In this document: positions 37,042 to 62,945 of the stretch, one piece after another | How positions within the stretch are numbered: position 1 is the first letter of the stretch | How the letters are laid out: every line of letters begins with the position of its first letter | NCBI GenBank assembly: GCA_015066625.1 | Contig: SVOC01000017.1 | Coordinates: 1 to 62,945, forward strand | Reading direction: 5' to 3' | DNA: 62,945 nucleotides | Origin: Oscillospiraceae bacterium | GTDB taxonomy: Bacteria > Bacillota > Clostridia > Oscillospirales > Acutalibacteraceae | Notes under the pieces: generated by a model | The model's database searches: none | The model's input: the letters and a program-made list of their open reading frames with translations, nothing else | What the model was told of the DNA's origin: nothing | Program-made: the position numbers and the translations under genes

Positions 37042-37094
37042 CGGTAACACAAAATAAATTGCAGTGTCATAATTCTGCAACCCAATAGCTGTGC

Positions 37095-37192
37095 ATCGGT
37101 ATTTTCCCTACGCCGGCATTATCCGGATCAGGTTAATGGGTCGCAGAAAAACATCTGCCTCTCAGCCCGTCGGTTCGAGCTCCCCTTTGTTG
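37095..37192 (-). promoter_or_regulatory. TPP riboswitch (THI element)
   Basis: The minus strand carries the conserved THI-box parts in order: GGGGAGC, CTGAGAGG, GACCC, AACCTGATCCGGATAATG, CCGGCGTAGGGAA. It begins almost at the predicted transcript start and precedes a strong terminator. Bound thiamine pyrophosphate should favour termination. The 36978-37368 interval has no gene: it holds this riboswitch, its terminator, the thi promoter and the divergent oxidoreductase promoter. Confidence 0.96.
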
Positions 37193-60887: not shown

Positions 60888-60917
60888 AAAATTATAACAG
60901 AAGAAGGAGTGATAACC

Positions 60918-62702
60918 ATGAAAAAAGCTTTAACCGTTTTTTTGCCCATATATATTTGTTTATTGCTGGTTGTTTTTTTGTCATCATGCTCTGATTCCCG
61001 GCATGATTTGACCGATACAACAACAGAAACCGTGACAACAGAAAAAATTTATAAAACAAACGGGGCTTACAACAACACAGTAAAATGGAAATACGATGAA
61101 GCAAGCCGCACTTTCAGCTTTTCGGGGACGGGCAAGATAGATAAAGACGGAAATCAGTCTGTTGATAATCACGGAGATTATTGGACCGCAGGTACGGAAA
61201 GCATAAAAATTGAAGAAGGCATAACAGATATTGATAATAATGACTTTCTGATTTTTGAGTTTGCGAAAACGCTTTATCTGCCGTCAAGCTACAGCGGCTC
61301 TGTGCCCGAACTTAAAAATATTGAAAAATATGTTGTTGCAGAAAACAATTCAAAATATTCTTCTGATAAAAACGGCGTTTTATTTAATCACGACAAAACA
61401 GAAATTATCCGCTATCCCAAAGGAAACACCTCTGAAATTTATAAAATACCGGACGGAGTAATCCATATCAGTTACGGTGCTTTTGATGAAAGCAAGTATT
61501 TAAAAACCGTTATCATTCCCGAAAGTCTTAACGATATTTCAAGAACCGTATTTGATAAATCTTCAATTTATTCAAACCCCGAAAACTGGGAAAACGATAT
61601 TTTTTATGTTGACACCTGCCTTGTCCGGGTCGATTGGGAAACAACCGCCGAGCACATTATTGTGAAAGACGGAATACAAACAATTTCCCCGTATGCTTTT
61701 AATCAATGCCAAAACTTAAAATCAATAACTATCCCCGACAGCGTAAAAACAATCGGAACCGGTGCATTCGAAAGCTGCTCCTCTCTTGAAGAAATTTATA
61801 TAGGCAGCGGTGTTGAAAAAATTGAAGATATGCCGTTTATTTTTGAGGTTGAAGGCTTGCCTTGCAGCAGTCTCAAAAGTATTGAAGTGAGCAAAGATAA
61901 CAAACACTATACAAGCGTTGACGGCGTGCTGTTCAACAGAGAAATGACAGAGCTTATCCAATATCCGATAGGCAAAAAACAGAAGGAATATGTTATTCCC
62001 GACAGCGTAACCGAAATCGGTAACGGCGCTTTCCGTTTCTGCAACGAATTAACAAAGCTTACTGTCGGTAAAGGTATAACTGTAATTGAAAATTCCCTTT
62101 TATTCCACTGCGAAAACATTGAAACGGTAATTCTTCCCGAAACCTTCACGAAGCTTGACGGCGGTGCTTTCAAATATTCGGGAATTAAATATATTGATAT
62201 TCCCGACAGCGTAACTTATCTCGGCTGCGAAGCAATGACAGGCTGTGACCGTCTTGAAACCGTGAATATAGGCAAAGGTGTTTCGTTTATTCACGAAATA
62301 GCAATTCACAGTCCGATGCTTAAAGCTGTTAATGTTGACAGTGAAAATGGATATTTTTCTGATGTTGACGGTGTTTTGTTCAACAAGGACAAAACCGAGC
62401 TTTTGCTGTATCCTTCAAACAAAAGCGGAGAAGAATATCATATTCCCGGGAGTGTAAAAACAATAAAAATCGGAGCGTTGAGTTACGCAAAACATCTTGA
62501 AAAAGTATATGTAGGCTCAGGCGTCGAAAAAATTGAAGAAGGTAATTTTTACGAGAATACGGAATATGATGAATCGGGTTACACAGAAGAAACAAACTAC
62601 GAGATATATTATGACGGAACAAAAAGACAGTGGAACAAGCTTTTCACAAATGAATACGAAAGAGAATATATAGACAAAGAAAAAATCAAATATCTGAAAT
62701 AA
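60918..62702 (+). CDS. BspA-type leucine-rich-repeat lipoprotein
   Basis: A 594-residue surface lipoprotein. A signal sequence ends in the lipobox LSSC, then a threonine-rich spacer and a series of LRR_5 (BspA/TpLRR) repeats such as VKTIGTGAFESCSSLEEIYI. Three longer units repeat DGVLFN..(M/K)TE(L/I)..YP, near 61372, 61918 and 62362. BspA-type proteins bind host matrix or glycans. The ATG at 60918 follows AAGGAG; promoter and terminator make it monocistronic. Confidence 0.9.
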   Translation: MKKALTVFLPIYICLLLVVFLSSCSDSRHDLTDTTTETVTTEKIYKTNGAYNNTVKWKYDEASRTFSFSGTGKIDKDGNQSVDNHGDYWTAGTESIKIEEGITDIDNNDFLIFEFAKTLYLPSSYSGSVPELKNIEKYVVAENNSKYSSDKNGVLFNHDKTEIIRYPKGNTSEIYKIPDGVIHISYGAFDESKYLKTVIIPESLNDISRTVFDKSSIYSNPENWENDIFYVDTCLVRVDWETTAEHIIVKDGIQTISPYAFNQCQNLKSITIPDSVKTIGTGAFESCSSLEEIYIGSGVEKIEDMPFIFEVEGLPCSSLKSIEVSKDNKHYTSVDGVLFNREMTELIQYPIGKKQKEYVIPDSVTEIGNGAFRFCNELTKLTVGKGITVIENSLLFHCENIETVILPETFTKLDGGAFKYSGIKYIDIPDSVTYLGCEAMTGCDRLETVNIGKGVSFIHEIAIHSPMLKAVNVDSENGYFSDVDGVLFNKDKTELLLYPSNKSGEEYHIPGSVKTIKIGALSYAKHLEKVYVGSGVEKIEEGNFYENTEYDESGYTEETNYEIYYDGTKRQWNKLFTNEYEREYIDKEKIKYLK

Positions 62703-62703
62703 C

Positions 62704-62744
62704 AGAAAAAGCCTTGAAACCGTAACGATTTCAAGGCTTTTTCT
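62704..62744 (+). terminator. Terminator after the LRR lipoprotein gene
   Basis: AGAAAAAGCCTTGAAA pairs perfectly with TTTCAAGGCTTTTTCT over a nine-base loop. It can work in both directions. Confidence 0.85.
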
Positions 62745-62768
62745 ATTGGTTGCGGAGACAGGACTTGA
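62744..62768 (-). repeat. Duplicate of the initiator tRNA 3' end (22 tRNA bases plus 3 flanking bases)
   Basis: The 25 bases at 62744-62768 are identical to 62898-62922, which hold the last 22 bases of the adjacent tRNA gene (acceptor 3' side, part of the T arm, encoded CCA) and three bases beyond it. The rest of a tRNA is missing, so it is not a second gene. Confidence 0.9.
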
Positions 62769-62853
62769 CTCGCGCCGCTGCGGCGGCTTGGTCGCTCGCG
62801 GTCACAACAGTCCACCGGACTGTTGCTCTGTACCGCTCGTCCTTCAAGTCCTG
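62759..62853 (-). other. Structured element joined to a tRNA 3' end
   Basis: A perfect 10-base inverted repeat (CAGGACTTGA 62759-62768 with TCAAGTCCTG 62844-62853) encloses two further perfect stems: GCCGC/GCGGC (62774-62787) and GCGGT/ACCGC (62798-62836) with an inner CAACAGTCC/GGACTGTTG hairpin (62805-62825). Together they make a three-way junction. No coding frame of note. Confidence 0.55.
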
Positions 62854-62859
62854 CCTGAA

Positions 62860-62898
62860 AAAGAAAAATCACAGACCATCTGACGATGACCTGTGATT
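62860..62898 (-). terminator. Terminator of the initiator tRNA gene
   Basis: On the minus strand AATCACAG pairs with CTGTGATT around an inner CATC/GATG stem, followed by TTTTTCTTTTTC. Confidence 0.85.
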
Positions 62899-62900
62899 AT

Positions 62901-62945
62901 TGGTTGCGGAGACAGGACTTGAACCTGCGACCTCCGGGTTATGAG
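62901..62945 (-). tRNA. Initiator tRNA-Met (CAU), 3' part
   Basis: The minus strand reads from the anticodon loop CTCATAA through the CCC side of the anticodon stem, the T arm (GGTTCAAGTCC) and the acceptor with encoded CCA. Position 72 is A, the base of the C1-A72 mismatch typical of initiators, and the anticodon stem ends CCC, so initiator rather than elongator is likely. The 5' half is outside the window. Confidence 0.88.

Follow-up and report, generated by a model that had tools for sequence, protein, structure and literature searches.

A 154-bp unit beside a tRNA-fMet gene of an Oscillospiraceae bacterium (assembly GCA_015066625.1, contig SVOC01000017.1, of which all 62,945 nt were analyzed and are called the window here) belongs to a family of miniature cassettes built on tRNA tails; the family is real, and no description of it was found in the titles and abstract beginnings of the open-licence PMC literature. 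With moderate confidence, the unit can be read as a miniature integrative element that is non-autonomous, measures ∼150 bp, and uses the 3′ ends of tRNA genes as insertion sites. It is bounded by direct repeats with a sharp edge between T54 and position 55 of the tRNA, both of its arms fit the local tRNA, and it is present at some and absent from other matching tRNA loci. Mobile DNA classically docks at tRNA genes, but the familiar elements that do so are kilobases long, and a geneless unit of 150 bp with a tRNA-matched stem would be a minimal case of tRNA-targeted integration. Sublocations of tRNA integration were reportedly the subject of work by Williams in 2002.

The contig end cuts the tRNA gene and leaves only its last 45 nt, and ARAGORN therefore reports no tRNA within the window. 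The initial annotation had named this gene an initiator tRNA, of which the 3′ part of a tRNA-Met(cat) is borne out by a complete tRNA-Met(cat) with an identical 3′ part on another contig of the same genome (L002); the initiator identity is a reading by eye (C1.A72 and a GGG/CCC anticodon stem). An exact 25-nt direct repeat (62744–62768 and 62898–62922), made of the 22-nt tail and three further bases, has a spacing of 154 bp and frames the unit (Table 1), and the first 10 nt of the second tail copy serve as the 3′ strand of the closing stem. The element had been placed right after the tRNA terminator, and a terminator-like hairpin (62898–62867, minus strand) does lie directly 5′ of it; its extent, given as 62759–62853, covers the folded part but omits an important part, namely the second 22-nt tail and the second terminator. 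At the L002 paralogue, the tail passes at once into a terminator of the outer kind, and T′ and the unit are absent, so that this locus, being a paralogue, may be called an empty site by analogy only. A gene for a BspA-type leucine-rich repeat protein (window 60909–62702, plus strand) ends at the outer terminator (62703–62745), convergent with the tRNA.

Table 1. Features of the unit beside tRNA-fMet, in window coordinates.
Feature	Position	Strand	Basis or remark
tRNA-fMet 3′ part, last 45 nt	62901–62945	minus	matches 3′ part of complete tRNA-Met(cat) in L002
Tail (positions 55–76) of upstream tRNA-fMet	62922–62901	minus	
Whole 154-bp unit (T′, antisense arm, core, tail copy)	62747–62900	minus	comparison with L002 and repeat spacing
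Terminator T′ of the unit	62857–62900; stem 62898–62867, then T-rich run	minus	terminator-like scan
Antisense T-arm (5′ strand of closing stem)	62844–62853	minus	10-bp stem; fits local tRNA in relatives
Conserved core (internal stem, 9-bp apical hairpin, side hairpin)	62769–62843	minus	alignment A1 (34 relatives), model R1, covariation
Closing stem, 10 bp	CAGGACTTGA 62853–62844 / TCAAGTCCTG 62768–62759	minus	
Internal stem, 5 bp	GCGGT 62836–62832 / ACCGC 62802–62798	minus	second strand positioned by eye
Apical hairpin stem, 9 bp	CAACAGTCC 62825–62817 / GGACTGTTG 62813–62805	minus	
Side hairpin, 5 bp	GCCGC / GCGGC inside 62787–62774	minus	
tRNA tail copy 2 (positions 55–76, CCA included)	62747–62768	minus	exact direct repeat
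Second terminator, presumably the original one of the tRNA-fMet gene	62703–62745	minus	terminator-like scan; same kind in L002

The three-way junction of four perfect stems that had been drawn at 62759–62853 is reproduced by folding, with a minimum free energy of −49.7 kcal/mol (z −5.99; 0 of 200 shuffles folded as well) and, for the minus strand, −47.3 kcal/mol (z −4.99). The closing stem had been described as built from the tRNA T-arm sequence itself, and its 10 bp are indeed the T-arm. The G+C content of the element is 65%. The absence of a reading frame was not borne out in the strict sense, as a mechanical ORF of 87 aa (62609–62872, minus strand) spans the element; nothing marks it as a gene. 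Conserved unpaired bases are present in the alignment of the core (A1), where the unpaired ACAGAG (columns 24–30) and UGA (columns 54–57) flank the apical stem in what we take, by eye, to be a kink-turn-like arrangement. No Rfam family matched the core, a TPP riboswitch (37094–37191, minus strand) being all that the window yields at gathering score, and a relaxed Rfam scan of seven loci returned tRNA, Gut-1 adjoining two copies, and weak matches, including one over the core of L027 that scored 19.1 bits where the gathering score is 137.

The element had been taken for a dispersed structured repeat or RNA that uses a tRNA 3′ end, and many copies beside tRNA genes agree with the first half of that description, though the core is single-copy in its own genome and the RNA half is not supported, as set out below. 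The search for further copies succeeded in the genus, in the family, and behind the tRNA genes of relatives. Within the genus, blastn matched 22 of 45 genomes, and a covariance model (R1) built from the 34 copies of A1 matched 57 of 300 genomes and 37 of 135 genera of the family (E ≤ 0.001) and 8 of 391 genomes in a class-wide draw (E ≤ 1e-5), the own genome being included in all three counts and both model searches being run under stricter filters. Among 30 loci from the family search, a complete tRNA lies at most 420 nt upstream in 18, a tRNA or tail lies upstream in 21 and on at least one side in 24, and the remaining six are away from tRNAs, several of them within other dispersed repeats. 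At class level, a tRNA-Ser, -Gln or -Tyr gene precedes the copy in 7 of 11 new loci, and the other four (L232, L235, L238, and L239) have no tRNA by ARAGORN, L235 being a non-tRNA repeat. In a collection of named genomes, 31 stretches carry the core, all from metagenome-assembled Clostridia, Clostridiaceae, and Ruminococcaceae, and most of the records are of animal gut origin by their titles. Plasmid and phage records gave no core match at E ≤ 0.01, and four IMG/VR contigs were matched; in three of these (L036, L037, and L039), the copy follows a tRNA-fMet 3′ half fused to other DNA, with an integrase-like ORF (by eye) on L037 and L039, and the copies are read here as the host flank of a prophage rather than as phage cargo. 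Tandem copies and arrays of units occur. In three genomes (L072 4396–4426, L079, and L080), a cut-off copy of 31–43 nt that retains the tRNA-side part precedes a gene that is similar in all three and, in L072, is YgjV-like by Pfam.

The fit of the unit to its tRNA was scored in a copy set drawn from 100 of 239 loci, which leaves out seven non-tRNA core loci (L099, L100, L102, L103, L105, L109, and L235), duplicates of the same place, truncated copies, loci included for other purposes, and loci not chosen (e.g., L046), and in which six sources (L187, L189, L193, L200, L210, and L216) came from a tRNA census rather than from the element search. These loci gave 116 matches (the weakest with 22.8 bits), of which 112 were not duplicates, 72 had a complete tRNA at most 420 nt upstream, 70 could be scored, and 69 were distinct. 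The 69 copies stand behind complete tRNAs of 23 kinds with 34 T-arm sequences, at a median gap of 51 nt between tRNA and element (range 38 to 263, the long gaps being mostly second units of arrays). The antisense arm mismatches the local tRNA at 104 of 828 positions (permuted 232 ± 8.5, minimum 193 in 1000) and the tail copy at 146 of 1518 (permuted 604 ± 18.6, minimum 558), in permutations that treat genomes as independent and ignore relatedness. Tails were found on both sides of 68 of the 112 copies (in the other 44, the flank is too short or one tail was unrecognized) and are the same in 66 of these 68; in the two copies with unlike tails, the antisense arm is closer to the upstream one. 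The base before the tail copy, scored in 82 of 112 copies at two mismatches or fewer, is A in 32, G in 49, C in 1, and T in none, and since it is never T54, the copied stretch begins at position 55.

Occupancy varies between two congeners. Among the 44 tRNA gene copies of G229, units of the same frame, some of them with other cores, were counted at 9 loci, matches that are a further complete tRNA being left out. Between G229 and its congener G302, unit occupancy (any core type) differs at 9 of 39 paired tRNA loci, of which three are weakly paired: the pairing rests on short matches for Tyr and Thr(tgt), and the two Pro(tgg) tRNAs have unlike tails. At Arg(tct), Arg(acg), and Ser(gga), a possible remnant of the unit was seen by eye in the genome that has no unit, so that loss may explain part of the difference, and gain and loss are not distinguished. 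At tRNA-Gly(ccc), the two genomes are identical over 50 nt upstream and at 67 of 68 nt downstream and differ by a 149-bp unit; in the locus without an adjoining unit, one is found 959 bp further down, past a single gene, and the difference can therefore be explained equally well by reshuffling of an array and by simple insertion. At the same tRNA-Gly(ccc), L278 (G302) and L279 (G229) hold different single genes between similar ends, one product having 164 aa and no Pfam match and the other 222 aa and a CAT domain, which looks like an exchange of one-gene cassettes.

Cores follow lineage and not tRNA kind. In 38 of 66 cases, the nearest core at another tRNA kind comes from a genome of the same genus (permuted mean 12.65, maximum 25), and in 12 of 66 from the same genome (permuted 3.03, maximum 10), and across genera, cores behind the same tRNA are no closer (identity 0.506) than those behind different tRNAs (0.558). 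Core identity for the same tRNA within a genus is 0.761 (18 pairs), and for different tRNAs, it is 0.649 in one genome, hardly more than the 0.638 between genomes of a genus; these values therefore do not show recent jumps within single genomes. The units are very probably mobile, and the sequence comparisons point to dispersal among tRNA loci on the time scale of a genus rather than to current jumping.

An explanation without any mobility of the unit would be tandem duplication of tail and terminator, with the hairpins arriving by gene conversion and the arms perfected by template switching. In keeping with this, the two terminators of a locus are more alike than shuffled pairs (mean score 14.3 versus 5.6; at least 20 in 20 of 66), copies occur in tandem, and template switching is reported to create and fix stems (PMC8794818; PMC7202029). 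It is nevertheless unlikely, as homologous cores stand behind 23 tRNA kinds, the inner and outer terminators look dissimilar by eye in the window and at the tRNA-Gly(ccc) of G229, and the flanks at Gly(ccc) and, with another core type, at Thr(tgt) are alike with and without an adjoining unit.

Covariation, which the initial annotation had named as a check on the stems, is present, with 96.8% of the cells in A1 pairing and 14 of 29 pairs doubly changed, neither of which was reached in 500 shuffles. Such a result could reflect selection on a structured non-coding RNA, made by read-through from the tRNA promoter and mimicking the tRNA 3′ half (e.g., as a decoy for a processing enzyme), and the conserved unpaired bases would suit that reading. 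In an RNA, G.U is tolerated on its own strand only. In the helices of 105 distinct copies, G.U (41) is about as rare as A.C (35) with one pair excluded, in contrast to 125 distinct tRNAs of the same loci, where the ratio is 54:5 in the acceptor stem and 67:5 in the T-stem; in the closing stem alone, there are 23 G.U and 21 A.C. The excluded pair is the outermost of the apical stem (alignment columns 42/150), with G.U in 34 of the 105 copies, which speaks for an RNA, A-G in 32, A.C in 1, and mostly standard pairs in the remainder, and its inclusion brings the totals to 75 G.U and 36 A.C. The core is also preceded by a terminator-like hairpin, its occupancy is scattered, and it folds well on both strands, and altogether a transcript with a function of its own is improbable. 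A promoter scan found none, which carries little weight since shuffles gave 0.5.

The near equality of G.U and A.C, together with the terminator between tRNA and element, is thus at odds with the RNA half of the initial annotation, and the pairing is taken to be kept at the DNA level; a DNA hairpin rather than an RNA is quite likely. Template switching between arms is reported to make and repair perfect stems (PMC8794818), and it could give the same pairing without any function. Strong covariation alone is no proof of an RNA, and the ratio of G.U to A.C offers a cheap test for other candidate RNA motifs.

The proposed insertion of a miniature element would leave the tRNA gene intact, with its terminator now supplied by the unit (T′) and the old terminator ending up after the second tail; as the unit carries its own terminator, the tRNA would keep one. 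The unit would travel as DNA, either as a circle or as a folded single strand, and strands would be exchanged at the T-loop or close to it. Once the strand is folded, its closing stem would restore a double-stranded T-arm, which suggests that a recombinase supplied in trans could take the hairpin for its site, and the perfect pairing may be maintained at the DNA level, in part perhaps by template switching from arm to arm. That a recombinase acts on the folded strand is offered tentatively, as one possibility with precedent in IntI, which recombines attC as a folded bottom strand (PMC2727003). A wider proposal, which we regard as doubtful, is an integron-like system on tRNA genes, in which the T-arm would be the docking site, the arms of folded cassettes would rebuild it, and a recombinase would swap the cassettes, giving arrays with occasional genes. 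The unit would be a natural test of folded-single-strand recombination outside integrons.

No neighboring gene stands out as the mobilizer among 241 ORFs of at least 110 aa within 4 kb of the copies, where the largest recombinase-like clusters (by eye) reach at most four loci each, and no autonomous copy was found among the ORFs near the copies. Tyrosine recombinases were found in all 14 element-bearing genomes tested and in all 14 control genomes, and the one tyrosine recombinase over the cut-off in G302 is Xer-like and falls under the curated XerC and XerD cut-offs. Y1_Tnp, which a REP/RAYT or IS200/IS605-type element would call for, is present in 9 of 14 element-bearing genomes and RVT_1, which a retroelement would call for, in 7 of 14, all incomplete assemblies in which outside or past help is possible, and RVT_1 is absent from G229, a genome with nine matches to the covariance model; neither a resident Y1 transposase nor a reverse transcriptase therefore looks required, and such a requirement is not supported.

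Compared with known systems, the unit shares with the islands and prophages of tRNA 3′ ends the direct repeat of the tRNA 3′ end, the intact tRNA, and the terminator after the tRNA, and differs from them in its ∼150 bp, the lack of genes, the palindromic core, the tRNA-matched arms, and the tandem arrays. The flanking tRNA 3′-end repeat of such islands is found in the window, and the two tails agree in 66 of the 68 copies that have both; presence and absence at orthologous sites is seen at 9 of 39 loci (three weakly paired and three with by-eye remnants), whereas an integrase of its own is lacking from the 154-bp unit, which is crossed only by the mechanical 87-aa ORF. Tail duplication is the usual mark of an island, tRNA-targeted integrative elements leaving one complete and one partial tRNA copy (PMC9897764), and in three IMG/VR contigs, the copy stands behind the 3′ half of a tRNA-fMet that is fused to other DNA, but that the units are attachment ends of large islands or prophages retained by chance is hardly credible given one conserved geneless family of cores, a close tRNA tail on both sides of 68 of 112 copies, tandem arrays, and 23 tRNA kinds.

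With integron cassettes and attC, the miniature unit has in common a folded palindromic site, cassette-like tandem units, and possibly a tyrosine recombinase, from which its anchoring at tRNA genes, its hairpin shape, and the lack of R boxes, integrase, and gene set it apart. attC sites end in the R boxes RYYYAAC and GTTRRRY, and these consensus motifs occur in 0 of the 34 A1 elements on either strand. MITEs, REP, and ERIC are short, geneless, palindromic, multi-copy repeats, presumably mobilized in trans. The unit is like MITEs in being short, non-coding, palindromic, and multi-copy (though single-copy in its own genome), and it differs from all three in that it has no terminal repeats of its own, its ends are tRNA sequence, and its location is fixed relative to tRNA genes; ends shared with an autonomous transposon together with a short target duplication, as in MITEs, were not found, the repeats being at least 22 nt long. 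The GGCTCCC...TGAGGGA hairpin repeats of gut Clostridia contain the same apical hairpin in some cases (L099, L102, and L235) but lie away from tRNA genes and have a different closing stem.

The frame of tail duplication may be more general than the core of the window. Behind a tRNA-Ser(gct) of the own genome (L134 1700–1970, on C8), the duplicated tail and terminator enclose a core, CGCCTGTGGCGGAT...GTTTCTGA, that is unrelated to the one in the window; tRNA-Asn (L115) is followed by a decayed relative, and G302 has a further core between tRNA-Thr and tRNA-Tyr that is absent in G229. The motif ATCCGTTATGAACACTCGTACCA, considered as a distal boundary for gene cassettes belonging to this system, was set aside, as it ends other islands behind tRNA-Arg in the own genome. 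Islands with a ATCCGTTATGAACACTCGTACCA-like end lie there in L160 and L159 (C4 84218–95413 and C9 254610–256321), the one on C9 carrying DUF4368 and TnpV genes, and C4:94831–95184 holds a Y1 transposase interrupted by an internal stop. In several copies (L176 1660–1745, and also L193, L200, and L187), another hairpin repeat, of the type AAGATTCCCCCAC...GGGGGAC, is seated at the tip of the apical hairpin, and the converse nesting, with the apical hairpin inside GGCTCCC-type repeats, is seen in L099, L102, and L235.
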